From Candidatus Accumulibacter sp. ACC003 (GTDB lineage Bacteria > Pseudomonadota > Gammaproteobacteria > Burkholderiales > Rhodocyclaceae): a stretch of 64,000 nucleotides of DNA. Shown piece by piece: positions 1 through 49,388 of this stretch. The stretch is from positions 62,001 to 126,000 of the forward strand of contig NZ_CAJQTX010000004.1 in the NCBI RefSeq assembly GCF_907163085.1, in the 5' to 3' direction. Under the pieces are notes generated by a model. The model saw nothing but the letters and a program-made list of their open reading frames with translations, made no database searches and was not told the DNA's origin. Positions within the stretch are counted from its first letter, which is position 1; each line of letters opens with the position of its first letter. A program made the position numbers and the translations under genes.

Positions 1-265
1 CGCCGAGGATTGGCAGGCGCATTTCGGGAAGCCGCTGTTACTGCTGGAGACCTTTGTGGACCCCTCGCGCTTCCAGGGGACCGTCTATCGCGCCGCGAAC
101 TGGACGCCTCTGGGGCTGACGCAAGGCTTTCGCCGCACCCGAGAAGGCTACAGCGCCCACCCGACGTCGCCCAAAGTTGTCTTTGTTCGCCCCTTGCAGG
201 CGGACGCTCGCGGCCAACTTTCCCGCTCGATACTCAACCCCCGCTATCGCACAGGAGCGCCCAGG
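1..265 (+). CDS. DUF4338/DruA-like protein, 3' fragment, reading into transposase
   Basis: C-terminal part of a DUF4338 (Druantia DruA-like) protein that starts upstream of the window. The motif LLLETFVDPSRFQGTVYRAA matches the ends of the two complete DUF4338 genes here (LLLETFVDPRHYTGTCYRAA near 2650 and LLETFVETPRHRGTCYQAA near 46670). The reading frame has no stop before the ATG at 266 and runs directly into the ISAs1-type transposase. It is therefore either an in-frame fusion or a gene that has lost its stop codon. Family membership is clear by internal comparison. The role is unknown. Confidence 0.75.
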
Positions 266-1446
266 ATGATGCTCACCGCCGAACAGATGCGCACGCTTCC
301 CGATTTCTTTGCCGGCATCGCCTACCCGCGGCGCGCGCAAGGAAGGCGTCACCCCCTTCCTGCCGTTCTGGCCATCGCCACGGCGGCGGTCTTGTGCGGA
401 ATGCGGGGCTACAAAGCCATCGCCGGGTGGGCCAAAGACCTCACACCGAAAGCACGCGAGCGTTTCCGCTGTCGTCGCGAGAAGGGCGTTTACCGCGTAC
501 CCAGCGAGTTCATCATTCGTGACGTCCTGATCCGTGTCGATCCCATGGCGCTCGATCAAGCGTGTCAGCAGTGGAACAAGGCCTATGCTCAAGACGACCC
601 CAGTCTGGCGGTCGACGGCAAGACCATGCGCAATGCCCATGACGAGCACGGTCAGCAAGCACACATCATGAGCGTGGTCGGGCATCAGACCGGCGTGTGT
701 CACACCCAAAAAAAGTCGGCACCTTGCCCGTAAATGGCGGGGACGAGCTCAAGCAGACCAATGAAATCGGGATGTTCATACCCCTGCTCGATGCGATCGA
801 TATTCAGGGCAAGGACATCACCGCCGACGCGCTACTGACACAGCGCAAGCTGGCGACCTACCTGGTGGAGCGCAAGGCGCACTATCACTTCACGGTCAAA
901 GGCAATCAGCCAACACTGCAAGCCGATATCGCGCTCCTCTTCCAGGATCGGAAGGGGGCAGACTTCGTGGCGGTTTCGCCACCTGACCATGGTCGGATCG
1001 AGACTCGGCGTATTTGGTGCAGCAATGCCCTCAACGCCTATCTCGACTTCCCGTATGTCGGCCAGGTGTTCTTGATCGAGCGCGAAGTGCTGCACAAGAA
1101 GAGCGGCAAGCGGACGCACGAAATCGCTCTCGGGATCACCAGTCGCCCTCCAGAACAGGCCAGCCCACAGCAAATCCTCGCCATCAATCGCGGCCATTGG
1201 TCGATAGAGAACCGCTGTCACTACGTCATCGACTGGAACTACGACGAGGACCGTAGCCGTATTCGGACTGGTTACGGACCCGAGAACATGTCACGCCTGC
1301 GCCGCTTTGCCGTCGGAATCCTGCACCACTTCTCCGACGGCAAAACCAGCATTTCCGAAAAAATGCGCCACCTCAACCGCAACATCCGATTGGTCTTCGA
1401 CTACCTGCGCATGACCAAAAATTCTACAGGCCACGTATCACCTTGA
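266..1446 (+). pseudogene. ISAs1-family transposase, two frames
   Basis: DDE transposase of the ISAs1 type, starting at ATG 266 (MMLTAEQMRTLPDFF). The first catalytic Asp is in SLAVDGKTMRN, the second in ITADALLTQRK and the Glu in GHWSIENRCHY. The frame changes at about 706-713. The upstream frame ends at a TAA at 731-733 and the rest is read in the -1 frame to 1446. The switch lies on seven A followed by G, where the codons CAA AAA AAG contain the heptamer A-AAA-AAG, a classic -1 slippery site. It could be a programmed frameshift, a mutation or a homopolymer sequencing error. ISAs1 transposases are usually a single ORF, so mutation or error is more likely. Confidence 0.8.
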
Positions 1447-1472
1447 TCCCGGCACGAGAACAAATTTACCGT

Positions 1473-1798
1473 GACTTCGAAGCTCAGAGCCTTGACTTCG
1501 AAGCTCAGAGCCTTGACTTCGAAGCTCAGAGCCTTGACTTCGAAGCTCAGAGCCTTGACTTCGAAGCTCGGAGCCTTGACTTCGAAGCTCGGAGCCTTGA
1601 CTTCGAAGCTCGGAGCCTTGACTTCGAAGCTCGGAGCCTTGACTTCGAAGCCCGGAGCCTTGACTTCGAAGCTCAGAGCCTTGACTTCGAAGCTCAGAGC
1701 CTTGACTTCGAAGCTCAGAGCCTTGACTTCGAAGCTCAGAGCCTTGACTTCGAAGCTCAGAGCCTTGACTTCGAAGCTCAGAGCCTTGACTTCGAAGC
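1473..1798. repeat. 21-bp tandem array, left part
   Basis: Fifteen full 21-bp units plus a partial one, with core CTTCGAAGCTCAGAGC. The unit contains the palindrome CTTCGAAG. Variation is almost limited to A/G in CTCAGAG versus CTCGGAG, with five consecutive G-variant copies in the middle, which suggests recent block duplication. The length is a multiple of 3 and no unit contains a stop in several frames on either strand, so spurious ORFs (FEAQSLD or SFEVKAL repeats) run through it. Nothing suggests that it is coding. Confidence 0.95.
1790..1798. repeat. 9-bp target duplication, left
   Basis: CTTCGAAGC directly precedes the left inverted repeat of the element at 1799 and is repeated at 4616-4624 after its right end. 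Removing the element and one copy restores the 21-bp array in perfect phase. Confidence 0.9.
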
Positions 1799-1922
1799 CA
1801 GCGCTGAAGCATGACTGCGCCAGCCCAGTACTGGCAAGGCGTTGCGGTGGGCAGGCAAAAAAGGTTTCGCACAAGGGAGCTAGACAGCCGGGGGGACTTC
1901 TGGCAGGATAGGTGGAGGGTCA

Positions 1923-2858
1923 TTGGTCCACGTTTCAGCCGGAGGTATCGTGGTGGTTGCAACGAGCGAAGGGGAGTGGGTGCACTGCGGTCGCGTATTC
2001 AGCGCCGCGGAGATCGCCGAGGTGTGCGGGACGGTGGCGTGGCTTCCGGGATTGGCGCGCAAGGAGTTGGCGGCGACGGTCTGCGAGCACCTGGGGTGGA
2101 CCACTCTGACAGGGACGGCGAAGATCAGCGCCTGCCTGGAGTTTCTGGAGCGTTTGCAGGCGGCCGGGCTGCTGACACTGCCGGCGATAAGGCCGTCGTC
2201 AGCACGCCGTTGCGCGCCGCCCGCGGCACCCGTAGATACGGTCACCGGGGAGCTTCCCGTGCACTGCGCCCTGTCGGCACTCGCACCGGTCTGCCTGGAA
2301 GTCGTTCGCGACGCGGCGTTGGTGGCGCAGTGGGATGCGCTGGTGGCGCGCTGGCACCCACTGGGTTTCCAGGGGGCCTTCGGCTACCGCCTGCGCTACT
2401 TCATCACGGCGGGCGACCGGCGGCTCGGCAGCGTCCTGCTGGCCGGCGCTGCCCGCGCGGTCGCCGTGCGCGACCGCTGGATCGGCTGGACGGCCCAGGC
2501 CCGCCGCGAGAACCTGGCGCGGGTGGTGAACAACAGCCGCTTCCTGATCTTTCCCCACGTCCGGGTGCCGCATCTGGCCAGTCATGTGCTCGGACAACTC
2601 GCGCGCCGCGCACGCGCGGACTGGCTCGATCACTGGGGCTTCGAGCCCCTGTTGCTGGAGACTTTCGTCGATCCTCGTCACTATACCGGCACCTGTTACC
2701 GCGCGGCCGGTTGGCAGTTGCTCGGGGCAACCAGCGGGCGCGGGCTGGCCCGCCCCGGCCAGTCGTATCGCAGCACGCCCCGCCAGGTGTGGCTCAAACC
2801 GCTGAGCGCCGATTGTCGCGACCGGCTGTGTGCCGCCCCTGGGAGCTCCCGGCCATGA
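1923..2858 (+). CDS. DUF4338/DruA-like protein
   Basis: 311-residue DUF4338 protein, the family of Druantia DruA. It has an N-terminal segment (CGRVFSAAEIAEVC), the central ENLARVVNNSRFLIFPHVRVP block and the C-terminal LLLETFVDPRHYTGTCYRAA block followed by RQVWLKPL. TTG 1923 is taken as the start because GGAGGG lies just upstream; the start is uncertain. The stop overlaps an ATG at 2855 (ATGA), which opens the frame of the transposase N-terminus, so translation is probably coupled. The gene lies inside the element's terminal repeats, so it is an element gene and not host cargo picked up later. Its biochemical activity is not established. Confidence 0.85.
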   Translation: MVHVSAGGIVVVATSEGEWVHCGRVFSAAEIAEVCGTVAWLPGLARKELAATVCEHLGWTTLTGTAKISACLEFLERLQAAGLLTLPAIRPSSARRCAPPAAPVDTVTGELPVHCALSALAPVCLEVVRDAALVAQWDALVARWHPLGFQGAFGYRLRYFITAGDRRLGSVLLAGAARAVAVRDRWIGWTAQARRENLARVVNNSRFLIFPHVRVPHLASHVLGQLARRARADWLDHWGFEPLLLETFVDPRHYTGTCYRAAGWQLLGATSGRGLARPGQSYRSTPRQVWLKPLSADCRDRLCAAPGSSRP

Positions 2859-3047
2859 GCAAACCCTGCCGTCGCCCGACACGCGCTGCCCTCAAGGAGC
2901 TGCGCTCAGAGAAGAAACGGCAGGAAAAGGCACTGAACGCGAAACGGCGCGCGATGTGGACAAGTCCTCCACTCCCCCACTTCTCTGCCCAACCGATGCT
3001 CAGCCTTCGCGACCGTCGGCGAGGAAAGGGAGGCCCGCGAGGACGCC
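2855..3047 (+). pseudogene. Transposase N-terminal segment, out of frame
   Basis: From ATG 2855 one frame reads MSKPCRRPTRAALKELRSEK and continues with a basic KKRQEKALNAKRRA helix. This resembles, from memory, the basic N-terminus of this transposase family. The frame joining the catalytic part is a different one (SAFATVGEEREAREDAVSKK just before 3048). A frameshift somewhere between about 2950 and 3000 therefore separates the two. Alternatively this is a small separate ORF ahead of the transposase. Confidence 0.5.
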
Positions 3048-4376
3048 GTGAGCAAAAAGACGCGTCTCCTGCGCAAAGAGCTACCCGCCTTGCTCGAGCA
3101 ACTGGAACAAATTCCCGACCCGAGAGACCCCAGGAAGCGCCGCCACAAGCTGACCGCGCTGCTGCTTTACGGTCTGCTGATGTTCGTCTTTCAGTTCTCC
3201 TCTCGGCGCGAGACCAACCGCGAAATATCCCGTCCCCAGTTCATGGCCAACCTCCACCTGCTGTTCCCGGAGATCGAGACCCTGCCACACGCCGACACCC
3301 TGTTTCGGCTGCTGCGCGACATCGACCTTGACCACCTTGAGCAGGCCCACGTCGATCTGGTGAAGCGGCTGATCCGCGGCAAGAGCTTCCGCCGCTATCT
3401 GATCAACCACTGCTACCCCATCGCCATCGACGGCTCGCAGAAGGTCGCCGGCGACACCCTCTGGGCGGAGGAACTCCTCCAGCGCACCGTCGGCAAGGAG
3501 GAAACCCGCCACACCCAGTACTTCGTCTACGTCCTCGAGGCCAGCCTGGCTTTCCACAACGGCCTGGTCGTCCCACTGCTCAGCGAGTTCCTCGAACACG
3601 CGCTGGGCGATACCGAAGCGCAAAAGCAGGACTGCGAGCTGCGCGGCTTTGTGCGCTTGAGCGACCGGCTCAAGACGCTGTTCCCCCGCCTGCCGATCCT
3701 GCTCCTGCTCGACGGCCTTTACGCCAACGGGCCGGTGATGCAGCGCTGCTTGCGCGCCCACTGGCAGTTCATGATCGTGCTTAAGGACAAGGATTTGTCC
3801 ACGGTCTGGCAGGAGTTCCGCGCACTCCACGCCCTGAAGCCACAAGCCGTGCAGCGCGCTTGGGGAAGGCGCCGACAACACTTCAGCTGGGTCAACGACA
3901 TCGACTACGCCTTCGCGGCCAACGGGCGTCAGCGTCTCAAGCTGAACCTGGTGGTCTGTGAGGAAAGCTGGGAAAAGATCGATGAACAGGCCAGGACCGT
4001 CACCGAAACATCGCGCCACGCCTGGCTCTCCAGCCAACCGCTCAGACAAGACAATGTCCATGAGCGCTGCAACCTCGGTGCCCGCCACCGTTGGGGCATC
4101 GAAGCGGGCTTCCTCGTCGAAAAACATCAGGGCTACCACTACGAGCATGCCTTTGCCCTCGACTGGAATGCCATGAAAGGCTATCACCTCCTCATGCGCC
4201 TGGCGCATGTGTTCAATACCCTGGCACGTTTCACCCGGCAGTTACGCAACCTCTATCAAGAACTCGGTGTGCGCGGCGCCATCGCCTTCATCCGTAATTC
4301 CTGTGCTGCGCCCTGGCTTGACCCAGCACGCCTGCGTCTGCTTCTCGCCGAACCGTTCCTGCTGCAACTCGAATAA
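3048..4376 (+). CDS. DDE transposase (ISNCY/IS4-like)
   Basis: 442-residue transposase read from GTG 3048. It has IPDPRDPRKRRHKLTALLLYG near the N-terminus. Likely catalytic residues are the Asp of YPIAIDGSQK, the Asp of ILLLLDGLYAN and the Glu of RHRWGIEAGFLVEKHQG. It follows the DUF4338 gene of the same element. It resembles large IS4/ISNCY-group transposases; the exact family was not checked. The true N-terminus may lie at 2855, with a frameshift in between. Confidence 0.85.
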   Translation: MSKKTRLLRKELPALLEQLEQIPDPRDPRKRRHKLTALLLYGLLMFVFQFSSRRETNREISRPQFMANLHLLFPEIETLPHADTLFRLLRDIDLDHLEQAHVDLVKRLIRGKSFRRYLINHCYPIAIDGSQKVAGDTLWAEELLQRTVGKEETRHTQYFVYVLEASLAFHNGLVVPLLSEFLEHALGDTEAQKQDCELRGFVRLSDRLKTLFPRLPILLLLDGLYANGPVMQRCLRAHWQFMIVLKDKDLSTVWQEFRALHALKPQAVQRAWGRRRQHFSWVNDIDYAFAANGRQRLKLNLVVCEESWEKIDEQARTVTETSRHAWLSSQPLRQDNVHERCNLGARHRWGIEAGFLVEKHQGYHYEHAFALDWNAMKGYHLLMRLAHVFNTLARFTRQLRNLYQELGVRGAIAFIRNSCAAPWLDPARLRLLLAEPFLLQLE

Positions 4377-4615
4377 CCTTGCCCAGGCCTGCCCAACACA
4401 TCTTCCCAAGCGCGGCGCACCCCGCGCCGGGAAAGGCTCGCCTGGCGATCGTAACGGAGCTCCCTCGACCTCTCCTGTCCCACTGACTGAACACCAAACC
4501 CCCGCGCCGCAAGCGCTCCCTTGCCGCTAGCCAACCCCCATCTGGCCGCCTCGGCGGCGAAAGTGGGCGTAACCGGCAAGTGCTGTCGATTCGGGGAGGT
4601 CATGCGTCAGGGCTG

Positions 4616-4770
4616 CTTCGAAGCTCAGAGCCTTGACTTCGAAGCTCAGAGCCTTGACTTCGAAGCTCGGAGCCTTGACTTCGAAGCTCAGAGCCTTGAC
4701 TTCGAAGCTCTGAGCCTTGACTTCAAAGCTCAGAGCCTTGACTTCAAAGCTCTGAACCTCGACTTCATAC
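4616..4770. repeat. 21-bp tandem array, right part
   Basis: About seven further copies of the same 21-bp unit, in the same orientation and phase as 1473-1798. They start with the second 9-bp duplication (4616-4624). Copies decay towards the outer edge, where CTTCGAAG becomes CTTCAAAG and the last units carry several changes. Such decay is typical of the ends of a tandem array. Confidence 0.92.
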
Positions 4771-33442: not shown

Positions 33443-34486
33443 ATGAACGTTTTCCAGTTCAGGGAGAGACTGGTCGGTGAATGCGGTCAGTTCACCCGCA
33501 GCTTCACGCGCATCAAGACTAACGACATCGCGACCTGTGTAGATACAGCCTACGCGTCGCAGCGTTATTGGCCGACGCCGCTGGTTCAAGTCAACTCCAA
33601 CTTCAAGTCGGGACACTCGGTTGAAGAGCTTGTCGGGGAAGGCGGTCATCACCCCGAATGTGCACGGATCTTCCGGGCGAGTAAGAGTGCCGCTTCGCCC
33701 GGCGTATCCCTGAGACCCTTCAAGCACCAGGAAAAGGCGATCAGCTTCGCTCAGACGGTGAGCAGCTACGTCCTGACCACCGGTACCGGCTCGGTCAAGT
33801 CGCTCGCCTATTTCATTCCCATAGTCGACGCCATCCTCAAGGCGCGGGTGGGTGAGCTGGCACCGCGAACACGCGCCATCTTCATGTGCCCGATGAATGC
33901 TCTGGCCAACAGCCAGCTCGCGGAACTCGGCAAGTTCCTTGGCGGCTACGGCGATCATCCGCCGGTGACCGTCGGTCGCTATACAGATCAGGAACACGAC
34001 GAGGAGCGACAGCGTTTGGCAGCGAACCGGCCGGACATCCTGCTCACCAACTTCATGATGCTCCAGCTCCTGATGACTCGTCAGGACGACAAGGACAAGG
34101 CAGTGATCCGCAACGCCAGGGGCTTGCGTTTCCTAGTCCTCGACGAATTGCACGCCTACCGTGGACGCCAGGCTGCCGACGTTGCCCTGCCGGTGCTGCG
34201 CGTCCGCGAACTGACCTACACCGCCCACGACCTCCAGCACTGGGCAGCCGATCTCGGCTACAGCGGACCGTACTTCGCCTGGGACCCGGACCGTCGCGCC
34301 CGCCTCTACGGCCTGACCCGCGACGAATTACGCTACACGCTCGACCCCGCCGACGTCATGGGCGGCGACTACTTCTCCGAGACCTTCCGCGTCCTCAAAA
34401 ACAACGATATCAGCCATTTCGGCGAATATCGTACGCGCCGTCTGGTCCACGATGCGTGGGACCAGCTGGCTGCAGGGGGAGCCTGA
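33443..34486 (+). pseudogene. Fused remnants: DEAD-box helicase and Eco57I-type methylase
   Basis: A 347-codon frame made of two pieces. Residues 1 to about 248 are the front of a large DEAD/DEAH helicase (LRPFKHQEKAISFAQTV, VLTTGTGSVKSLAYF, FMCPMNALANSQLAEL, LLTNFMMLQLLMTR, LDELHAYRGRQAADVA). From about 250 it is the tail of an Eco57I-like DNA methylase (VRELTYTAHDLQHWAADLGY to HFGEYRTRRLVHDAWDQ). The Walker A motif reads GSVKS where GSGKS is required. The likely origin is one or more internal deletions joining two genes of a restriction or defence cluster. The protein should not work as a helicase. Confidence 0.75.
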
Positions 34487-34559
34487 CGCCTATGTTGCCG
34501 TACCCATTTTTCGTAGCACAATCAGCAATGAATCCATTGATCAGAAGAGGATGACCATC

Positions 34560-37500
34560 ATGCCTTGTGAAGAATCGCAGGACGCTATCGTCGGTCTACC
34601 CGATGACGTGCTGGAACGGGATGGCAACACCATTGTCCTGCTCAAGCAATTGCAGGCGAAGGGCCTGAACCGCGACCTCAAGCGTAGTCTGAGCGAGTTG
34701 CCAAAAGGCGCCACCTGTTTCGACGCGATCATCACCAAGTGGCTGGGTGACAGAGTCGCGCACCTTGCGGAAAAGGACAAGCAACTCATCCGCCGTTGGT
34801 CGAATCCCACAGCCCGTATGGGTTATTTTTGGGGCGCGCGCCAGGCCGGACGGCGCACGGCAATCGATTATGCGTACTCCGTTGATCTGTTTTTCCTCGA
34901 TGAATTCGACAACGACTGGATCAAGCTCTCGTTCGACGAGGAGTTGCTGCTCGCCAGTTGCACGGCATGGCCCAAGATCAGGGCTGGTGTAGAAAAACAC
35001 CTGGCCCTGTTAGGTACGAAACCGTCGCTAAACGTCTTCATGCTCTGGCCAAAGATCGTCGACGAACTCGCGCACTGGCCAGAACGCGACGAAGCGCGAC
35101 GGGGGGCAGTGAGTCACGCGGTTTTCGCTCTGTGCTCGGCATCGGGGAGCGCGTGGTTCGTACGACGAGCGGTCGAACTGTGCAGTGATTTTCAGCCGAG
35201 CTACGCGGAGGCTGAGCCTGAGGAATTCGGGCGGTCGACCAGTACCCAGGAGTTGACCCCAGTTGGGTTACAGGCGGATTGGGATGCCCTACTGGAAAGG
35301 CTTGACGGCCTGCGTGACGAGCTGCGGAGTCGACCGTCTCGGCAGTCCGTCGCCGACTTGGTGAGCCTTGGCGAAGAATTCGGGTTGATGGTAGAGCACT
35401 TGCCTGCAGCGGAGGAGAGCTTGCGCGAGGCGATCGAGGCGAACGTTGGCGCGCTGATTGCACTCTGCCGTGAGTGGAGCGGCAAGTCAGAAGAGTTTGC
35501 CTGGTTAGACGTCACCATGCTGCGGGCCCTCGAAAAGCGTTGGGAGGAAGCGCTGGGCGAACCACCGGAGGCCGATCTGGAAGCGCTGTCCACCGACGCC
35601 GACGCCGCTTGTGGGAGGACGGCGCTTGCCGGCATCGCCTTCGAGTCCGAGGCGGGCGGGCGTCAGGCCCTGCAGGACAAGCTCGATACTCTGGGTCGGC
35701 AGCTACAGGCGGCGAAATCGTCTATCGAGCGCAAGCCTTTCGAAAGAAAGCGCCGCCAGCGAGAGAGGGCGCTGCTGGATCTGGAGGAGAAGCTCGAGTC
35801 TCTGCAAGATGCCTTCCTGGCGGCTGCCAGCCCCTTTTGCCGATTATTCGAAACGGGGGCTGATGACTCTCGGGAGGTTGAGCCGGAAGCGAGTGCTCTT
35901 GGGATGGATGCACAATCGATGGAGCCAACACTCGCGGTAGGCCCGGCACAGCCTGATGCAGTACTCCCGCTGTCCGTCGCCGAGCCGGTACAAGAGGCTG
36001 CGGCGGAAGCCGAGATCCTGCCTGCCCCCGCGCCGGAGCCTGAGGCGGTGTCTGAGCTTGCGTCTGACCTGATGCCAGAGTCAGCCACTACGGCCTTGGC
36101 TGAGCACGCCATACCAACTCGTGAGGAAACCAGCCCCTGCATTCCGATTGCCGGTGGAGCGGCGGAAAGAACGCGAGAGGAGATTTACTCCCCCGCCGCC
36201 GGCGACGCATGCGGCCCGATCTGGGCGCTTCTAGCACGGGGGAACCTGTCGATGGCCTGCCAGTTCGCCAGAGCCCTGGGCACAGAGGATGATCGGATCC
36301 GAACACCGCCTCTCGACTTGCTGGAGGCGGTCGCGCTGGCGCATTCTCTGGTGTTTCCTGATGGTGGCTTGCGCGAATCGGTGGCTGCCAGGCTCCAGAA
36401 TTTTTCCGAGAAGTGGTTTCATGAGGACGGCCCACAAACGTGGCATACGGCGTTGAACCTGCTGCTCGTGGCAGCGACGTTGCGACCGATGGTACTTTGT
36501 CCGGAGAGCGGCGCCTCGGCCATAGCCGGTTACCTGCATCTCGAGAGTCAGGGGCGCTACAAGTCGCTCTACTCGCTCGTCCAGTCTCTGCGGGAATCCA
36601 GTGACCGCTTGCTGGGCTTTCGGATAGAGCTGGCATCGATTCGCCAGGCACGTTCCGAGGCGGCTATCGACAACGATTTTTTGGTACTGCAGGCCGAAGC
36701 TGGGGACTGGTTGAGAATTCAAGCGCCGGCCATGACGATCAAGTTTGCGGCGGCGACAAAGGTTTGGCACGCGTGGTTGAAGCCGGATGGCTTGATCACG
36801 AGGCTGGTGTCTCCGGTGGCGTCGAACAGGACCTCTGAATTGGCCGAGGTAAGGGACTCGATTCGTTTGCTGTCTGATCACTCGGAACTGCGCAAGCTGA
36901 TCCGCAAGACGGACCGGACGGAGAACCAACGGGTCAGGGGCGAAGATATCCATTCGGGTGCGCTGGATCACCTCGCGCGATGCACGCGGGAGGCCATCGG
37001 ACTCGCCAGGCGCTGGGTGGCGCTGCGCGAAAGCCAGAGTCCGTCGAACGACCAGATGCGCAAGCTCCTGATGAACATCCGCGAGAAACTGGAGCAATTG
37101 CGCGAACCTATTCGGGCGGAACTGACTGCGACCGACAGCGACTCGTGGGGACTTGTGGCGAGTTCGCAGAAGACTGCATTGCGAGAGCTTCAGGCACTTC
37201 AGGCTCTTTTCGATCCCGAATCGCCCCCGTTGCCGGCAAGCGAGCCGCCAGCAGACGAAGTGATTGGGCGAGACATGCTATGGGTTCCATCGATCAGGAT
37301 TGGCGCCGATTGGTCGATCGAGACGCCAGAGGTAGAACTTCTCTTGTCGATCCGGCAGTGGCTTGCTGAGCCGGTCTCATTCATGGACGCCTTCGATGCG
37401 CGACTTGAACGTGGTGACGTGTTCGGTGCTCGGTTGTTGTTGATGTGTTCCGGCGACGAGCATTCAACGCTGGATCTTGAAGACAGTCTCCGCCGCGAAC

Positions 37501-40500
37501 GTGACAGCTGGCGCGCAAAGCTGAAATCCGCACTACAGGAGGCACGCCGCAACATCGAGATTGGTTCGGCCTACGGCTACATTTCGGATCCGGAGCGTGG
37601 TGCCTGGGAGAGCGATCTTGTCGTTGTCGAGGCGCAGACGGCCGAACATGGGCATTTCGATTTGGCGCTTCGTTCAATTACCGGTATTTCAGCATCCATC
37701 TGCAGGAATCGCGACGACAGGGCCGGGGAAGTCCATGGCGCTATTACAGAGCTGGCGCGATCCGGCAGGAATGCAGGTGACCTGGCGGAAGTGGAGAGGG
37801 TGGTCAACGAGGGAGACATTGCAACCGCCAACGAGTTGCTGCAACGGGTTCGCAACGGTCTGTCGCCCTGGCCAGAGGACTTGCTCATCGCTGATCCTTT
37901 CCGCTCTTTCGTGTCGTGTGTTGCCGCATTGGAAGATTGGCTGAGCAGTCGGAAAGCGAGGGAACCCGTCGAACTGACCATCAGGAAGCGTGAGGCGATA
38001 CCCGGCCTGGAACTCGGAAAGGTGGATGGCGCACAATTGGATCAGGCGGCGAAGATGTTTTCAGATTGGTCGATGCTGAAATCACGTCGCGAAACCGACG
38101 CGGCGAAACTTCAATCGTTCTTCAGCGGCATAGGCTTCGTCCTGCCCAAGCCGCCCTCCCGGGAAGAGAAGACTCAGGGGATGGAAGTCTGGAAAATGAC
38201 GACCACGACCGTTGAAGATCGCTCCGTTTGTCCGATACCGCATTTTGGATCAGGTGCAAAAGGCAACTATCGAGTGATCTGCCGGTGGGAACGGCCGACG
38301 GAAGACGACATCGTTCAGATGATCGGTGATTCCAGCCTGCACCGGGCGACTATCGTTCTCTACTTTGGCCGCATGTCTGAGCGCAAGTGGCGTGATATCA
38401 GCCGAAAGACGAAGGTGGCTCACAAGAGCTTTGTTCTGGTGGACGAGGTGATGCTCTTGTTTCTGGCGGGGCAGAGCGGCTCCCGGCTGGCGGCATTCTT
38501 CTCGACCGCCTTGCCTTTCGCGTATTCCGACCCATACGACGCAACGGCCGGCCTCGTGCCGCCCGAAATGTTTTTTGGCCGCGCGGCAGAACTCAACGCC
38601 ATCCAGGGGGTGAATGGTCGCTGTTTCATCTATGGCGGACGTCAGTTGGGCAAAACTGCCTTGATGCGCCGTGCCGAGCAGGCTTTTCACGCGCCAGGAA
38701 AGCTGCGGTATTCGACGTGGATCGATCTCCGTGCCGAGGGTGTCGGCGTCAATCGTGAGGCATCCGAGGTCTGGCTCCCGCTGGCTGCCAGGCTGAAAGA
38801 AGCTGGCGTGCTTGGCGAGGCATTTGGTTTTGCATCCCTGGCAAAACGAGGTGGCGTGGATGCGCTGCTCCAGGAGGTGCGCAGGTTTCTCGATGACAAC
38901 GCCGAACGGCGCATCCTTCTGCTTCTCGACGAAGCTGACCGCTTTTTCGAGCAGGATGGACGGCGTGACTTTGCCGAAACCCGGCGCCTCAAGCAGTTGA
39001 TGGACGTGACGCAGCGGCGTTTCAAAGTCGTCTTCGCCGGCTTGCACAATGTCTTGCGGATGACCGAGCGTGCCAACCACCCGCTGGCGCATTTCGGCGA
39101 GCCGATAAAGATCGGTCCCTTCATTGATGAGCACGAGATCCGTGAGGCGCAGGATCTCGTGCGGAAGCCGCTGCTGGCGGCAGGATTTGAATTCGATGCC
39201 CCAAGCCTCGTGATTCGCATCCTGGCTCAGACCAACTATTACCCAAGCCTCATCCAGCTCTACTGTCACCACCTGTTGCGTCACATGCTGGCGAAGGTGG
39301 GCACCGCACAGCGCCCGCCGGGGCCACGCTACCGAATCACCAACCAGGATATCGAAGCGGTCTACTCGAGCGGGGATCTTCGCGATGAGATTCGCAACAA
39401 GTTCCGGCTGACCCTGCAACTGGATCTGCGTTACGAGGTAGTCGCGTATGCCATGGCTCTTGAGTCTCTGGCCGGTCGATGCCCCCACAACGAGGGGATG
39501 GACTGGCGGAGTATCTGGCAAAGGGGCGCGATGCAGTGGTGGTCTGAGGGGTTTCACGATACCAGCGAGTTGGATTTTCGCGTGCTGCTTGATGAAATGG
39601 TGGAGTTGGGTGTCCTTTCGCGAAACCCGGAGCGGCGCTACAGCTTGCGCAATCCGAACATCTTCCTGCTGCTCGGCAATCAGGAAGAGATAGAGACCGT
39701 TCTCGTCAAATCCCGGCAGCCGACCGGGGAGTTCGACTCGGCTGCGTTTCGGGCGCATCTCAGGGATCAGCCGAACAGCCCGCATCGAAATCCTCTGACC
39801 TACCAGCAATTGAGTGAACTTCTCAGCCAAGAGAACTCAATCCTGGCCCTGGCGGGATCGGTTGCCGCCGGCTCGGATGGCCTCGTCCCCGCGCTCAAGG
39901 ACTACCTCGCACTCACCAGCAGCGGGACGCTGCTCGAGATCAATGGGTGTGGTGACCATGTGGCGTTTGCCAGTGCTCTCGAGAACATCACCAAGAAAAA
40001 CCAGTATGACGGACTGACGCTCGTCGTTGTCCCCGATACGGTCCCCTGGAGCGGGATCTGGGTTCGAGATGCTAAGCGTCTCCTGGCCCGCTTGCGCTCG
40101 CCAAGCCGCTTTGTTTCTGTCGTTTTCGTCGCCGATCCCGTGATGATGTGGGGAGTGCTCGGCGATGAGGCGTTACGTGAACTCGAAATCCCCTGGATGT
40201 CTATGCTTCCCTGGCGGGAGAGCTTCGTCCGCCAATGGCTCGAGGACTTGAAGCTGCCCAACGTGAGTGAGCGCCTTGGGGCGGCAACCGGTTTCTGGCC
40301 ATCCCTGCTTTATTCGATGGTCGAGAAGCGCAGCATTGGCAACGAATTTGAACGCCGGATCGACGCAGCGGTGCACAGGTGGACCGATCCCCAGGAAGTG
40401 AGCAAGTGCCTTGCAGAATTCGGACTCAATCTCCCTTTACCGCAGCAGATACTGGGCATCCTGGCTGAATGGGGTCCGCCCGCCGAGCCGAGCGAGTTAG

Positions 40501-40643
40501 CCGAGCTATCGGAATGCTCTAGGGATGTCGTGGATCGCGCTTTGCGATGGGGGGAACTGCTTGGTCTTGCGAGGCGGGAGGGAGGCGACTTGTGGACTCT
40601 CGACCCGATCGTCAAACAGGTTCTACAGGCGGCCAGGACTTGA
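34560..40643 (+). CDS. Giant P-loop ATPase, defence-like
   Basis: 2027 residues of unrecognised family. A long N-terminal part contains a coiled coil (about 380-440) and an acidic Pro/Ala/Glu linker (about 440-550), then an alpha-helical region. The ATPase core (about 1335-1600) has MFFGRAAELNAI, Walker A YGGRQLGKTAL and Walker B ILLLLDEADRFF, in the style of STAND/AAA NTPases that start with FxGR. A further NTPase-like segment and a C-terminal winged-helix (PSELAELSECSRDVVDRALRW to LWTLDPIVKQVL) follow. ATG 34560 has AGAGGA 8 bp upstream. The stop overlaps the next start (TGATG). A defence role is inferred from size, architecture and neighbours only. Confidence 0.7.
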   Translation: MPCEESQDAIVGLPDDVLERDGNTIVLLKQLQAKGLNRDLKRSLSELPKGATCFDAIITKWLGDRVAHLAEKDKQLIRRWSNPTARMGYFWGARQAGRRTAIDYAYSVDLFFLDEFDNDWIKLSFDEELLLASCTAWPKIRAGVEKHLALLGTKPSLNVFMLWPKIVDELAHWPERDEARRGAVSHAVFALCSASGSAWFVRRAVELCSDFQPSYAEAEPEEFGRSTSTQELTPVGLQADWDALLERLDGLRDELRSRPSRQSVADLVSLGEEFGLMVEHLPAAEESLREAIEANVGALIALCREWSGKSEEFAWLDVTMLRALEKRWEEALGEPPEADLEALSTDADAACGRTALAGIAFESEAGGRQALQDKLDTLGRQLQAAKSSIERKPFERKRRQRERALLDLEEKLESLQDAFLAAASPFCRLFETGADDSREVEPEASALGMDAQSMEPTLAVGPAQPDAVLPLSVAEPVQEAAAEAEILPAPAPEPEAVSELASDLMPESATTALAEHAIPTREETSPCIPIAGGAAERTREEIYSPAAGDACGPIWALLARGNLSMACQFARALGTEDDRIRTPPLDLLEAVALAHSLVFPDGGLRESVAARLQNFSEKWFHEDGPQTWHTALNLLLVAATLRPMVLCPESGASAIAGYLHLESQGRYKSLYSLVQSLRESSDRLLGFRIELASIRQARSEAAIDNDFLVLQAEAGDWLRIQAPAMTIKFAAATKVWHAWLKPDGLITRLVSPVASNRTSELAEVRDSIRLLSDHSELRKLIRKTDRTENQRVRGEDIHSGALDHLARCTREAIGLARRWVALRESQSPSNDQMRKLLMNIREKLEQLREPIRAELTATDSDSWGLVASSQKTALRELQALQALFDPESPPLPASEPPADEVIGRDMLWVPSIRIGADWSIETPEVELLLSIRQWLAEPVSFMDAFDARLERGDVFGARLLLMCSGDEHSTLDLEDSLRRERDSWRAKLKSALQEARRNIEIGSAYGYISDPERGAWESDLVVVEAQTAEHGHFDLALRSITGISASICRNRDDRAGEVHGAITELARSGRNAGDLAEVERVVNEGDIATANELLQRVRNGLSPWPEDLLIADPFRSFVSCVAALEDWLSSRKAREPVELTIRKREAIPGLELGKVDGAQLDQAAKMFSDWSMLKSRRETDAAKLQSFFSGIGFVLPKPPSREEKTQGMEVWKMTTTTVEDRSVCPIPHFGSGAKGNYRVICRWERPTEDDIVQMIGDSSLHRATIVLYFGRMSERKWRDISRKTKVAHKSFVLVDEVMLLFLAGQSGSRLAAFFSTALPFAYSDPYDATAGLVPPEMFFGRAAELNAIQGVNGRCFIYGGRQLGKTALMRRAEQAFHAPGKLRYSTWIDLRAEGVGVNREASEVWLPLAARLKEAGVLGEAFGFASLAKRGGVDALLQEVRRFLDDNAERRILLLLDEADRFFEQDGRRDFAETRRLKQLMDVTQRRFKVVFAGLHNVLRMTERANHPLAHFGEPIKIGPFIDEHEIREAQDLVRKPLLAAGFEFDAPSLVIRILAQTNYYPSLIQLYCHHLLRHMLAKVGTAQRPPGPRYRITNQDIEAVYSSGDLRDEIRNKFRLTLQLDLRYEVVAYAMALESLAGRCPHNEGMDWRSIWQRGAMQWWSEGFHDTSELDFRVLLDEMVELGVLSRNPERRYSLRNPNIFLLLGNQEEIETVLVKSRQPTGEFDSAAFRAHLRDQPNSPHRNPLTYQQLSELLSQENSILALAGSVAAGSDGLVPALKDYLALTSSGTLLEINGCGDHVAFASALENITKKNQYDGLTLVVVPDTVPWSGIWVRDAKRLLARLRSPSRFVSVVFVADPVMMWGVLGDEALRELEIPWMSMLPWRESFVRQWLEDLKLPNVSERLGAATGFWPSLLYSMVEKRSIGNEFERRIDAAVHRWTDPQEVSKCLAEFGLNLPLPQQILGILAEWGPPAEPSELAELSECSRDVVDRALRWGELLGLARREGGDLWTLDPIVKQVLQAART

Positions 40644-44174: not shown

Positions 44175-44286
44175 GTAAGTATTCGGTGAACCCGTAGCCC
44201 CGGTTTTTTTGGTGGGCGAGCTTCCGTCAGCGATTGGCGGGCAGCCCGGAGATCTGAACTGGACACAGCAGCGGAAATCCGGCACC

Positions 44287-45999
44287 ATGCGGCGCATGGG
44301 CACGGCTACGGACATTATCTGCGGAGGATCGGCGGCAAGTCACCGCCAAGTGGCGCCGTTCGCCGAGGTGTTGGTGACGTTGACCAAGGAGCAGGAAATC
44401 AAGCTCCGTTGGGAGGCCAACTTCTGGCGCAGCCAACATCGGCAAGCGCTGGTCCGTTTGGCGGAATCGGAGGCCGCTCATCGGGTGGAAATGGCGCGTG
44501 CGGCGGAGCAAGCGGCGGCGCGTGAGGCGGCCTTGCGTAGCGAGCTCGAGCAGGCCCAGGGCCGGATCCGCGATCTGCAAAAACGCCTGTTTGGTCGCAA
44601 GTCAGAACGCTCTTCGGGAGCCGAGAAGAACCCGGCAGCAGACCAGAAGTCGTCGCGGGGTCGAGGTCATCAACCGGGAGCAACGGGTCACGGGCGGAAT
44701 CCGGAAAGCCACTTGCCGACGCAGATCGAGGTCATCGACATCGACTGCCCGCATTGCCCGGACTGTGGTCTGAGCTACGTCGACTTTCCCGGCACAGAAG
44801 ACAGTGAAGTTCTCGAGATCGAGGTCAAAGCCTACCGCCGGAAGATCTGCCGGCGGCGCTACCGGCGGACCTGTCAGTGCCCGGGCGCCCGCGGCATTCT
44901 GACCGCGCCACCGCCGGCACGATTGATCCCGCGTGGAAAGTACGGCGTGTCGATCTGGGTGCACTTGCTGCTGTCGAAGTTCTTGTACGGTCAGCCGACG
45001 CATCGGCTTCTACGAGACTGGTCCGACCACCAACTGAGGCTTTCGGCAGGAACGGTGGCCGGCGGACTTCGTGCCTTGGCGCCGCTGTTCGAGCCGCTTG
45101 AAGAAGCACTGCTTGGCCGACTGCGCTGCGAGAAACAGTGGCACGCGGACGAGACTCGCTGGCGGGTTTTTGCCGAGACCGAAGGGAAGGTCGGACATCG
45201 CTGGTATTTCTGGGTGTTCCACGGCCCATCGGTCATCCACTTCGTGCTCGACCCGAGCCGCTCGGCGGCGGTGCCGATCCGGGAACTCTCCGGTAGCGCC
45301 GGAGGCGTCATCATCTGTGATCGCTACGCGGGCTACAAGAAACTCGCGCGAGTCCTTGACCACTTCGTTCTGGCCTTCTGCTGGGCACATCAGCGGCGTG
45401 ACTTCCTGGAGCTGGCCAACGCCCATCCGGAACTCGCGGACTGGGCACTGGCCTGGGTCGAGCAGATCGCTCAGCTCTACCACTTGAATGGACGGCGCCT
45501 GGAAGTCCGTAACGACCCGGCACAGTGGGCCGAACGCGACCGCCTCTTGCGGCAGGCGATCGTGCAGATGGCCAGTCAGCGCGAACGCGAACTGGCAAAC
45601 CCGGCGCTCAAAATGCCGGCGAGCAAGGTGCTGCGAAGCATGCACAAGCATTGGTCCGGCTTGACCGTGTTTGTCGACCGCCCCGAGGTGGCGATGGACA
45701 ATAATGCCGCCGAACGCGCCCAGCGTACGCCGGTGGTCGCACGCAAGAACTTCTATGGGTCGGGTAGTCACTGGTCCGGCGCTCTCGCCGCGACGATGTT
45801 CAGCCTGCTGCTGACGCTGCGCTTGTGGAAAATCAACCCGCGCATCTGGCTGACGGCTTATCTGGAAGCCTGCGCCGCCAACGGCAACCAGCCGCCAGCG
45901 GACTTGAGCGCCTTTCTGCCCTGGGCGATGGCGACCGATCGTCTGGCCCAGATGCGTGCCATCCCGGTCAATCAGACACCTTCCATCGATAGCTCGTGA
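44287..45999 (+). CDS. IS66-family transposase (TnpC-type)
   Basis: About 570 residues. N-terminal coiled coil and zinc-finger-like region (IDCPHCPDCG), then the DDE core with Asp in KQWHADETRWRV, Asp in IICDRYAGYKK and Glu in MDNNAAERAQRTPVV, and the IS66 C-terminal tail (NQPPADLSAFLPWAM). The start is uncertain; ATG 44287 and an upstream TTG at 44209 are both open. The stop overlaps the GTG of the DUF4338 gene. Confidence 0.93.
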   Translation: MRRMGTATDIICGGSAASHRQVAPFAEVLVTLTKEQEIKLRWEANFWRSQHRQALVRLAESEAAHRVEMARAAEQAAAREAALRSELEQAQGRIRDLQKRLFGRKSERSSGAEKNPAADQKSSRGRGHQPGATGHGRNPESHLPTQIEVIDIDCPHCPDCGLSYVDFPGTEDSEVLEIEVKAYRRKICRRRYRRTCQCPGARGILTAPPPARLIPRGKYGVSIWVHLLLSKFLYGQPTHRLLRDWSDHQLRLSAGTVAGGLRALAPLFEPLEEALLGRLRCEKQWHADETRWRVFAETEGKVGHRWYFWVFHGPSVIHFVLDPSRSAAVPIRELSGSAGGVIICDRYAGYKKLARVLDHFVLAFCWAHQRRDFLELANAHPELADWALAWVEQIAQLYHLNGRRLEVRNDPAQWAERDRLLRQAIVQMASQRERELANPALKMPASKVLRSMHKHWSGLTVFVDRPEVAMDNNAAERAQRTPVVARKNFYGSGSHWSGALAATMFSLLLTLRLWKINPRIWLTAYLEACAANGNQPPADLSAFLPWAMATDRLAQMRAIPVNQTPSIDSS

Positions 46000-46853
46000 A
46001 GCCTTATTGCGGGCGCCACTTTACCGCCGACGAACTGCAGACGATCCGCGGCCTGATCGAGGCCCCTCCTGGCGCCAGCCGCGCACAACTCTCGCGTCAG
46101 GTGTGCGAGCTCTTCGACTGGCGCAAGCCCAATGGTGATCTGAAGGATATGACCTGCCGGGTGGCCATGCTGCGCATGCAAGCCGACGGCCTGCTCACCC
46201 TGCCGGCTGCACGACGGACCGCTCCTCGCCAACCCGAGTATCGGCCCACGCACGCCACCGATCCACAACCCTTGCTCACTCAGCCGGTGCATGAACTGCC
46301 GCCTCTCTCGGTGCGACAGGTCGTCGGTTCGGCGAACTCGCGTCTGTGGAACGAGTACATCGCTCGTTACCACTATCTCGGCCACACGCCCATGGCCGGC
46401 AGTCAGAGCCGATACTTCGTCTTCGCCGGCGAGACACTCGTCGCCTTGCTCAGCTTCGCCGCCAGCGCCTGGAAACTCGCCGCGCGCGAGCAATTCATCG
46501 GTTGGCACGATGACCAGCGACAAAGGAACCTGCAACTGGTGGTGAACAATGCCCGCTTTCTGATCCTGCCCTGGATCCAGTGCAAGGGCCTGGCCTCCAA
46601 GATCCTCTCGCTCATGCAGCGGCAACTGCCCAAGGACTGGCTGGCGCGCTACGGTTACCGCCCCGTGCTGCTCGAAACCTTCGTCGAGACCCCCCGCCAT
46701 CGCGGCACCTGCTACCAGGCCGCCAACTGGATCAAGGTCGGCCAAACCGCCGGCCGAGGCAAGAAGTGCCCCACCCGCAAGTCGATCCTCCCGATCAAGG
46801 ATATCTGGCTCTATCCCCTTCACCGATCCTTCCGATCAGTCCTCTGCCGCTAA
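45996..46853 (+). CDS. DUF4338/DruA-like protein in IS66 element
   Basis: 285-residue DUF4338 protein. YCGRHFTADELQTIRGLIEA opens it, followed by LWNEYIARYHYLGH, QLVVNNARFLILPWIQCKGLASKIL, LLETFVETPRHRGTCYQAA and KDIWLYPL. GTG 45996 overlaps the transposase TGA (GTGA). It ends 26 bp before the right inverted repeat, so it is an integral gene of the element. It is the best-defined case of the three, since the element has intact ends and target duplication. Confidence 0.9.
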   Translation: MKPYCGRHFTADELQTIRGLIEAPPGASRAQLSRQVCELFDWRKPNGDLKDMTCRVAMLRMQADGLLTLPAARRTAPRQPEYRPTHATDPQPLLTQPVHELPPLSVRQVVGSANSRLWNEYIARYHYLGHTPMAGSQSRYFVFAGETLVALLSFAASAWKLAAREQFIGWHDDQRQRNLQLVVNNARFLILPWIQCKGLASKILSLMQRQLPKDWLARYGYRPVLLETFVETPRHRGTCYQAANWIKVGQTAGRGKKCPTRKSILPIKDIWLYPLHRSFRSVLCR

Positions 46854-46902
46854 CCGGCTTCGCCAACGGCGCTGGCTCACTACGGGTTGGCCGAATACTT
46901 AC

Positions 46903-47012: not shown

Positions 47013-49388
47013 CAGATTTCCTGATCTCGGAGGAAACCGGGTTGGCACTTCAGACAAGAGTGAAGGTCATTCTTGCCCCGGTTTCCGGATGCGGAAAATC
47101 TTGCAGGGTGAGTTCCTCGAGGAGCGCGGCGATAGCGCGATCATGAGCTGGGCTGGCCATCCGGTGAATTTTGATGGTCAGGGTGTTGGCTAGCGCGTTC
47201 GGTTCGATGTCAGCGGAAGAAACGAACAATTCGCGAATGAGCGCACGTGCGTCGTCCTCCTTCTTCAAGTGGCGGCGCAATAGCGCCACCATGGCGGTCT
47301 CGGCCCGGTAGGCGACCATTTTCACGGTATCGCAGAGCATCTTGTTCAGCGGCGGCAGTTGGGTCGGTCGCTCGGCCTCGGGCAGACTGTCGATCGTCAT
47401 CTTTCGGGGGCTTGCCTTGCGCGCCGCGCAAAGTCGCTTGAGCTCCTCCTGAACGGCCTGCAGTGCTTCGACAGACTCGGCGTTTTTCTGGATTTCGCCG
47501 CCGTCGTTCAAGGCCGTCCTGGCGATTGCGGCCTGCAGTTTTCTTTCGCTCTGGCGGGTTTGCCTGACGGCCTTGTCGAGTTCCCGCCAGCGGGGGTTAA
47601 CGACCTGGTGAGTGCCGGGAAGAGATTCGTCTCCGTACTCGATAAGCCCATCAATATCATAATGTTCCATCATGTACGCGAAGTAGTTTTCCTGGCACCA
47701 ACGGGCGAACATCCGCCCAGCGATGGTGGTGTTTCCGAGTTGCCGGGCGGTCGTGATCACGGCTGTTTGATGTCCCGTCTGGGTCAGCCGACGAACTTCG
47801 CTCACGGCCAGGCTGCCATCGCCTGTGCCGAGTCGGGTTTCGCGCATGGCGAGTTTCATCCCGGTGCTGCCGCCTGCCGGCAGATGGACTTCCTGTTCCT
47901 GAAACACCTCTTCGGACCAGAGGTCCTTGACGTTCTTGCGGTAGGTCAGTGCGCCGATGCGCTGTTTCCAGAGTCTGCCGAGGAGACTCTGGGTGGCCCC
48001 TTCCCGATCGAAGACCATGACAAACCGGTGCAGGGTCGGGTCGGCGTCCAGTTCGGCCGGCGTCGGCTGTCCCGGGACAATCTCCAGCAGTTGGGGGACG
48101 ATGTCCTTGAGCAGGGTCTCGGCGAGTCCGTCATTGAGCGGCTGCGAAACCACAAAGAACGGGCGACCCAGGGCATCGTTAACCCAGTAGTCGGTGGTGC
48201 CCCGCAGGCACAGGCGTTCGCGCGAGACGTAGCGCTTCGACAGCCTGGCCTGCTCGCCGTGATACACCCGAACATGACCATCGACATACAGGTAACCCGC
48301 TTCTTCTGGCTCGCTTTCCATCCAGAGCTTCGCGAGATCCCGCATCCAGGCTGCCGGGTCACCCGTCTTGGCCAGCAGATGGACCTTTTCCCGCAGGGTG
48401 CGGACTTCCGGTACCCGGTCCAGGCCGATGACTTTGCCGAGTTCTCCGGGCGAGGTTTGTCGCAGATGTTCCGGCCGCTTGATTCGCCCCAGGGCCATGA
48501 AGCCGAGGACGAGAAGGATGTGCAAGGCGCTGTAGAATCCCCGGGGCAGCTTGAGATGGCGATCCAGGCCGGTCAGTAGCCCGTTCGCGCACAAGGCCGG
48601 CAAGCCGGCCAACAGCCCCCCCATCGCCACATCGTGGCTCGCTTCGAAGCGCGTCGTCGCACCGGTCGCCAATCCCAGCGCCGTTTGGATCCGCTCGTCG
48701 GCGCGCGTGCAGGCGGTGCCCATCCCCGCGGCGGCTTCCGCATCCGCCCGGCTGCGCTCACTCTTGGTGCTCGCCGCTTCCAACTCCCCTGCCTCTTGCG
48801 GCAAGGCGGCCAACTGCGGCACGCCCTGGCGCCGGATCGCCTTGCGCAGCGTCGACTCCTGGACGCCCACCTGCCGTGCCACTTCGGCAGGACGCTTTCC
48901 CTCGCTCAACAGCCGCGCGCATTCGGCACTCTTGTCCGGCGTCATGATCCGCGGCCGGCTCGCCGCCGCCGGTCGAAAGAAAGACGATGGCCCGGCTTTG
49001 CGGCTTTGTCCCACCCAGTTCATCAGCGTGCGGTGCGGGATGCACAGCGGTGGCCTTTCCAGTTCGACCGCCTTGACGTGCCCGTTCTCCATCAGGCTGG
49101 TCAGAGCGAACCTGCGGCCAGCGTCGTCTCCTACGGGGTGCGAGAAGTAATTGTCTCCCCCAACAAAGTAGATCGCTTGGCCATCCTTCTCCAGAATCGC
49201 CAACCCTTCTCCCACTTTCTGCGCACCATCCGGAAACCCTGGAAGCCACGATTGCCTCAACGTCTGCTCCTCCTTGCACTCCTAGCGAAGCTTGGTTTAT
49301 GCCATAAGAAAATCATGGCCGTCAAAATAAAGTGCCACGTGCAATTCCGGAATTCTACCTACATTCCCGGCCGGGATCAGGAAATCTG
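47013..49388 (-). mobile_element. IS with large transposase, 5-bp duplication
   Basis: A 2376-bp element with terminal repeats CAGATTTCCTGATC at the left (47013-47026) and its complement at the right (49375-49388), flanked by AAGTT (47008-47012 and 49389-49393). Removal restores the DUF1330 frame exactly. One gene on the minus strand. Confidence 0.92.
47050..49260 (-). CDS. Large transposase, unassigned family
   Basis: 736 residues. An N-terminal helix-turn-helix region (LSEGKRPAEVARQVGVQESTLRKAI) precedes a DDE-like core (GYLYVDGHVRVYHGEQARLSKRY with DGH, FVMVFDREGATQSLLGRLW, MFARWCQENYFAYMMEHYDIDGL with a candidate Glu), then a coiled coil. Defined by its place inside the 5-bp-duplication element. 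I cannot name the IS family; it resembles putative transposases common in Burkholderiales and Rhodocyclales. Confidence 0.82.
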   Translation of the reverse strand: MRQSWLPGFPDGAQKVGEGLAILEKDGQAIYFVGGDNYFSHPVGDDAGRRFALTSLMENGHVKAVELERPPLCIPHRTLMNWVGQSRKAGPSSFFRPAAASRPRIMTPDKSAECARLLSEGKRPAEVARQVGVQESTLRKAIRRQGVPQLAALPQEAGELEAASTKSERSRADAEAAAGMGTACTRADERIQTALGLATGATTRFEASHDVAMGGLLAGLPALCANGLLTGLDRHLKLPRGFYSALHILLVLGFMALGRIKRPEHLRQTSPGELGKVIGLDRVPEVRTLREKVHLLAKTGDPAAWMRDLAKLWMESEPEEAGYLYVDGHVRVYHGEQARLSKRYVSRERLCLRGTTDYWVNDALGRPFFVVSQPLNDGLAETLLKDIVPQLLEIVPGQPTPAELDADPTLHRFVMVFDREGATQSLLGRLWKQRIGALTYRKNVKDLWSEEVFQEQEVHLPAGGSTGMKLAMRETRLGTGDGSLAVSEVRRLTQTGHQTAVITTARQLGNTTIAGRMFARWCQENYFAYMMEHYDIDGLIEYGDESLPGTHQVVNPRWRELDKAVRQTRQSERKLQAAIARTALNDGGEIQKNAESVEALQAVQEELKRLCAARKASPRKMTIDSLPEAERPTQLPPLNKMLCDTVKMVAYRAETAMVALLRRHLKKEDDARALIRELFVSSADIEPNALANTLTIKIHRMASPAHDRAIAALLEELTLQDFPHPETGARMTFTLV

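Follow-up and report, generated by a model that had tools for sequence, protein, structure and literature searches.

DUF4338 genes carried by insertion sequences of several transposase families are very probably kin of phage Mu Mom and may encode DNA-modifying enzymes

The Mom protein of phage Mu, itself a transposing element, shields Mu DNA from restriction, and Dam methylation tunes the action of the IS10 and IS50 transposases. Accessory TnpA/TnpB orfs are found in IS66 elements, and ISAs1 elements produce target duplications of 8-10 bp. Druantia type I DruA (PF14236, PADLOC DruA1) has a domain homologous to that of the transposon proteins described here and belongs to the same Pfam family. 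A 2024 paper (PMC10853773) briefly refers to DUF4338 as a GNAT domain and has the same domain at the N-terminus of DndF, fused there to a restriction component and not to a transposase. In the CC-licensed PubMed Central papers searched no description of a biochemical role for DUF4338/DruA was found, and no link to insertion sequences was found in the titles and abstract starts listed.

The window (the whole stretch of DNA that was analysed, 64,000 nucleotides, C4:62001-126000) opens within an ISAs1-type insertion sequence and contains three DUF4338 genes, each with a DDE transposase. The first-pass annotation described these genes as paired with three different transposases, and sequence and Pfam matches recovered all three pairs. 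This observation holds and is larger than first noted: the 5.39-Mb genome has 83 DUF4338 (Pfam DruA, PF14236) matches and, when the stretches around all 83 were compared, 75 of them fell into three multicopy insertion-sequence classes (A, B and C). The remaining eight comprise fragments, disrupted copies and DUF4338-IS4 (Tn5-like) fusions; of these fusions, one has 764 aa, two have 741 aa and one is a shortened copy. The features of the window, with positions counted from its first nucleotide, are:

1..1473, plus strand: right 1473 bp of the class B insertion sequence (ISAs1 type with fused DUF4338, 1908 bp in all)
1..244, plus strand: C-terminal part of the class B Mom-like predicted GNAT (DUF4338) domain, protein P0001
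302..574, plus strand: DDE_Tnp_1_assoc domain (PF13808, P0001 residues 230-320), in frame with the GNAT domain
697..1446, plus strand: catalytic half of the ISAs1 transposase (NCBIfam NF033564, above cut-off; PF01609)
707..715, plus strand: probable -1 frameshift site CAAAAAAAG (A AAA AAG), joining the two halves
1471..1785, continuing at 4633-4758, plus strand: 21-bp tandem array with repeat unit TTGACTTCGAAGCTCAGAGCC
1799..4615, plus strand: class C insertion sequence, 2817 bp, 19 copies
1923..2858, plus strand: class C DUF4338/Mom-like predicted GNAT gene with a TTG start (PF14236, E 2.4e-25)
2855..4376, plus strand: class C DDE_Tnp_1_assoc transposase gene, starting in the ATGA overlap (2855-2858)
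44175..46902, plus strand: class A insertion sequence (IS66 type), 2728 bp, 31 copies
44209..45999 (start may be later, e.g. 44287), plus strand: class A IS66 transposase gene (NCBIfam)
45996..46853, plus strand: class A DUF4338/Mom-like predicted GNAT gene (PF14236, E 4.7e-40)

The class B element of the window begins at C4:61566, 435 bp before the window, and ends at window position 1473; its PF14236 match (C4:61681-62130) also begins before the window. There are 25 copies in the genome, with common ends at -115/+1793 relative to the DUF4338 match. Positions 1-1446 had been read as one in-frame ISAs1 fusion. The fusion to an ISAs1-type transposase was confirmed, but the single frame to 1446 was not. 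DUF4338 shares its frame, 372 codons ending at 733, with the N-terminal DDE_Tnp_1_assoc part alone; the catalytic half (697-1446) is in the -1 frame behind CAAAAAAAG, and the fusion therefore spans a probable programmed frameshift. This site is present in 24 of the 25 class B copies and is one A shorter in one copy.

The class C element has the TIR CAGCNCTGANGCATGAC and, in the window copy, the 9-bp target duplication CTTCGAAGC. Its transposase is intact (506 aa) in 16 of the 19 copies; the frame is broken in the window copy, where the open part is 3048-4376. The ATGA coupling previously described for 1923-4376 was upheld by the 506-aa transposase of these 16 copies, but the assignment to an IS4/ISNCY-like family was not: NCBIfam gave the class C transposase no IS4/ISNCY assignment, its sole match being to IS1380 and sub-threshold (19.3 of 180 bits). 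The class B and class C elements of the window were both inserted into the 21-bp tandem array, which has 21 units with at most 3 mismatches in the two stretches together (none expected by chance).

The order is IS66 transposase followed by DUF4338 in the class A element, with a GTGA overlap at the transposase stop. Its TIR begins GTAAGTATTCGG, and the window copy is flanked by the 8-bp target duplication GACCTGCC. The reading of 44287-46853 as an IS66-type transposase GTGA-coupled to DUF4338 was borne out by the match of the transposase to NCBIfam NF033517 (E 1.4e-87, above cut-off) and by the element ends at 44175 and 46902. The class A DUF4338 protein matches phrog_1384, Mom-like, at E 6e-6. 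Between the two class A subtypes, dN/dS was 0.17 for DUF4338 and 0.21 for the transposase, so that purifying selection keeps the DUF4338 gene as strictly as its transposase. Among 72,556 plasmid records, just 2 contained a close relative of the class A protein (E 1e-5), and phage records yielded none (E 0.01), which leaves few named, annotated examples. On a Thiodictyon plasmid, an integrase, an IS91 and an IS4 transposase come, in this order, after a DUF4338 gene.

For 72 of the 75 copies of classes A-C both ends could be mapped: the copies cease to be identical at matching inverted repeats, which enclose DUF4338. Exact target duplications were found in 27 of 31 class A copies (8 bp), 23 of 25 class B copies (10 bp) and 17 of 19 class C copies (9 bp), and one further class B copy has a 9-bp duplication; three of the 75 copies lack one end and four lack an exact duplication. 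The 10-bp duplication and the NF033564 match of class B fit ISAs1, and the 8-bp duplication and the NF033517 match of class A fit IS66. The first-pass annotation had placed two of the three window genes within elements with terminal repeats and target duplications; such elements exist, but the count was too low, as all three genes are in them. The position of DUF4338 inside the terminal repeats, which it had left to be checked, was true of all 72 end-mapped copies and of the four classes of a second genome (see below). IS66 and ISAs1 transposases without DUF4338 are also multicopy in the same genome, and DUF4338 is thus dispensable for those families in general.

The transposon DUF4338 protein has a predicted GNAT fold, a fold common to Mom, and is very probably kin of Mom. 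An hhalign comparison of transposon DUF4338 with 13 Mom proteins gave 96.9% (E 1.9e-10, 159 columns); the control GNAT alignments were poor and failed to recognise each other. A profile of six DUF4338 sequences matched Mom alone only weakly, and it was the deeper alignments that settled the kinship. Among 52 members, phrog_1384 ('Mom-like DNA modification protein') matched 52 at E<=1, with every other PHROG matching at most 4, and PF25680 (Mom) matched 35 at E<=1 (best E 1.8e-5). The 13 families listed in the Pfam scan of these 52 include no further GNAT family; weak matches to unrelated families were to PaaX (4 members) and DUF3734 (2 members, best E 0.0034), among others. When two Mom profiles were run against the whole genome at E<=1, all of their matches (59 of 59 and 82 of 82) fell in DUF4338 genes; the genome also has 13 PF00583 and 5 PF13302 matches. 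All of these Mom-profile scores are under the Pfam gathering score (best 17.9 vs. 27.1 bits), and the proteins are therefore called Mom-like here and are not filed in PF25680. BLASTP of one DUF4338 protein against Mom gave no significant match, and when solved structures were searched by sequence with the DUF4338 profile, no more than two hits were returned, both at chance level.

AlphaFold (AF2) models were consistent with this kinship (pLDDT 91 for class A and 86 for class C). In Foldseek searches, the class C model had Mom (8bv8) first among solved structures (E 1.3e-5), and the class A model had FeeM and Mom 8bv8 tied at E 1.1e-5, with Mom second; TM-scores were moderate (0.58 by target), with other GNATs close behind. 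Compared with phage Mu Mom (PDB 8bv8; PF25680; phrog_1384), the transposon proteins have 14-18% identity, lie beside or inside the DDE transposases of IS elements and, in classes A and C, have an extra N-terminal domain, which is helical and winged-helix-like in the models.

Mom residues H48, S114, D139 and G146 align with DUF4338 H126, S201, D/E231 and G237, and Mom Y149, A151, N153 and G158 align with Y240, A242, N244 and G249. We take H48, Y49, D139 and Y149 of Mom to have active-site roles. Across 95 non-redundant DUF4338 domains, H126 is conserved in all 86 domains covering this position, S201 in 95 of 95, D/E231 in 88 of 95 and Y240 in 94 of 95. The position of Mom Y49 is kept in 75 of 86 and is Pro in 9 of 86, including class C. 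DUF4338 R187 is invariant; it is one residue out of register with Mom R101 by eye and is left unaligned with it by MAFFT. The substitution in the inactive 8bv8 protein (S124A) falls on Mom S114, by a ten-residue numbering offset that we infer.

These results suggest, short of proof, that some mobile elements modify DNA themselves. Our proposal, with about an even chance of being right, is that the insertion sequences have a transposon-encoded, Mom-like GNAT enzyme that modifies DNA as a core component; that DNA is the substrate of this enzyme is roughly as probable as that it is not. The enzyme, coupled to the transposase as a neighbour gene or fused to it, would be a core part of the element, and either a winged-helix-like domain at its own N-terminus (classes A and C) or the attached transposase (class B) would bring it to the DNA. 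There the enzyme would attach a small group to bases (probably adenine), and the modified DNA may be the ends of the element, the transposition intermediate or the target. The likeliest purpose would be the tuning of transposase action at modified ends, comparable to Dam methylation with IS10 and IS50, and next in rank the shielding of the mobile DNA from restriction, comparable to Mom with phage Mu. Both uses are drawn from these analogies, and either one would be less probable than DNA modification as such. If correct, these would be the first insertion sequences known to encode a DNA modification of their own. The Mom-like identity makes the function of transposon DUF4338 directly testable.

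The GNAT domain might instead modify a protein, such as the transposase or a host DNA-binding protein, and control transposition in that way. Many of its structural neighbours, among them RimI, SpeG and FeeM, have amines on proteins or small molecules as their substrates, and stable coupling or fusion to a transposase would suit a modifier acting in cis on its partner. However, Mom is the sole GNAT family that the sequence profiles recover, and it is the residues of Mom that are conserved. Protein modification is an unlikely reading.

Rather unlikely too is a catalytically idle GNAT fold that serves as a binding module for element ends, target choice or regulation, roles of the kind that the first-pass annotation had proposed. 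The winged-helix-like N-terminal domain in the class A and class C models would be in keeping with binding, as would the fusion to transposases with DNA-binding domains. The putative catalytic residues are nearly invariant in the 95 non-redundant domains, however, and class B, which is without the N-terminal helical domain, nevertheless retains the Mom-like residues. We favour the DNA-modifying enzyme over both of these readings.

The first-pass annotation had related the transposon proteins to DruA of the Druantia system, and this identity was not supported: the proteins are close to Mom, and the class A protein (P0005) had no match to the PADLOC models at E 0.001. Five Druantia-type proteins, taken as full-length PF14236 matches, were used for comparison; the two that were run (L103 and L104) match PADLOC DruA and so are confirmed by it. 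By hhalign, the five reach 97% with the transposon type and 0.6% with Mom. They have W, V and G at the positions of H126, R187 and S201 (2, 4 and 4 sequences covered there, respectively), WSxP and LLxGK motifs in 5 of 5 and the GTxYxA motif in 0 of 5; their C-terminal positions did not align with those of the transposon type. Given these differences at the comparable positions, the link of transposon DUF4338 to defence is distant. The name DruA is misleading, and caution is advised against annotating such transposon genes as Druantia defence.

That DUF4338 is a passenger, a Druantia-like anti-phage gene carried by transposons as defence cargo, is very unlikely. It is true that both types are filed under DruA in Pfam and are homologous, and that relatives of DUF4338 occur in defence settings. 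Nevertheless, elements of 1.9-2.8 kb are too small for a helicase or another Druantia gene; the mapped elements of the window contain no DruB-E or helicase and have transposase and DUF4338 as their only open frames. The fusion to and overlap with transposases also argue for a shared function.

DUF4338-like proteins of other kinds were also observed. At L199, L207, L224, L227, L237 and related loci, a DUF4338-like protein (about 400-490 aa) that has the Mom-like residues adjoins a protein of about 600-730 aa; that of L224 weakly matches the PtuA ATPase (PADLOC), and the L199 protein pair was without any PADLOC match. This group is possibly a separate modification or defence system. In the proteins of L113, L114 and L120, 680 to more than 1100 aa long, the PF14236 match is split; one of the three also has weak AAA ATPase hits.

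The arrangement of DUF4338 with transposases is real and general. A contig scan found at least 530 DUF4338 relatives, and the best 80 come from many phyla. There were 285 domain hits; without the 32 shorter than 120 aa, the other 253 formed 95 clusters at 85% identity, a sample that leans to class A relatives. In 72 of the 95 clusters, one or more members had a transposase profile either fused to the domain or no more than 1.5 kb away on its strand; three of the 72 rest on one group, whose tested members gave a sub-threshold IS1182 match and a DDE_Tnp_1 match. Six clusters are in another gene setting and 17 are without a transposase profile nearby, and one of these 17 was later found to adjoin an ISKra4 transposase (NCBIfam). 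Within the genus, 20 of 28 genomes had a match, and those other than the genome of the window had at most 5 matches each among those listed; most genus genomes are drafts, where repeats collapse.

A second genome (Arenicellales, OY282380), reached via locus L165, has 50 DUF4338 matches among those listed. Four classes were distinguished there by our own transposase profiles: IS66, a one-frame ISAs1 fusion, a Tn5-like fusion of 791 aa and an IS4_1-like fusion of 774 aa, the last matching the profile of L206 (IS4_1 by NCBIfam). All four have inverted repeats at common ends, and a duplication of at least 8 bp is retained in 12 of the 24 copies examined.

At the curated NCBIfam cut-off, the partner families are IS66, ISAs1, IS4 (IS4_3 and IS4_1), IS1634 and ISKra4; transposases of at least five curated families therefore carry or adjoin a DUF4338 gene. 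These elements have the same curated transposases as ordinary IS66, ISAs1, IS4, IS1634 and ISKra4 elements, with TIRs and 8-10 bp duplications where mapped, and differ from them in carrying or adjoining the Mom-like gene. The earlier interpretation is in part supported, by the association with several unrelated families, by the retention of the gene inside the element and, in class A, by the purifying selection on it.

Whether DUF4338 subclades follow transposase families had been put forward as a check, and a tree of 93 divergent domains showed that they largely do. The tree (a quick method, unrooted, with 39 of 90 branches open) needs 11 changes for 7 transposase families, the least possible being 6, and shuffled labels needed a mean of 32.9 (lowest 29 of 200 shuffles); subclades thus largely follow the families, with some repeated captures or swaps. 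When the arrangement was included, 20 changes were needed for 13 labels.

DUF4338 was also found next to transposases beyond chance, another point to be checked. A transposase profile was present at 21 of 28 DUF4338 loci in the genus sample and at 21 of 30 in 33 genomes chosen through such loci, compared to 0 of 60 ordinary GNAT loci, made in the same way, from the genome of the window and related genomes, where any of our transposase profiles within the locus was counted. This control is lopsided, because the profiles were seeded on DUF4338 partners and other transposons near the controls went uncounted. The phylum-wide sample, which includes Druantia-type proteins (L103-L105), the larger split-match proteins and short fragments, had a transposase profile at only 6 of 24 DUF4338 loci. 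The mapped ends and duplications, copy by copy, are stronger proof than the GNAT-locus control. Coincidental adjacency inflated by copy number, which could draw on the fact that most copies in the genome come from three expansions, has practically no chance of being right: we judge it refuted by the mapped ends and target duplications, and the clustering of partner families on the tree, the four classes of the second genome and, with the bias just given, the control all stand against it.

In its widest form, the proposal of a DNA-modifying enzyme is that insertion sequences mark themselves: at least five unrelated transposase families would have taken up a Mom-like base-modifying enzyme for transposition, Mom of phage Mu would be the part so far known of a general connection of transposition with DNA modification, and Druantia DruA would be a diverged branch without these active-site residues. 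We regard this as possible, its chances being somewhat below even.

Further features were seen in and around the window. An open frame of 2063 codons lies at 34452-40643 (plus strand), for which a search by sequence at E 0.001 found no relative among solved structures. A Transposase_29 (PF21804) element adjoins the class A element at 47050-49260 (minus strand), and this transposase is beside or inside other DUF4338 element copies too (e.g. C1:790774 and C11:122776), which indicates that the elements are nested. Tandem pairs were observed for class B (L049, C5:160.7-163.1 kb) and class A (L093, C1:246.4-249.7 kb); the nested and tandem copies spoke neither for nor against a role in self-immunity, and each pair apparently has one target duplication, located between its two members and common to both.
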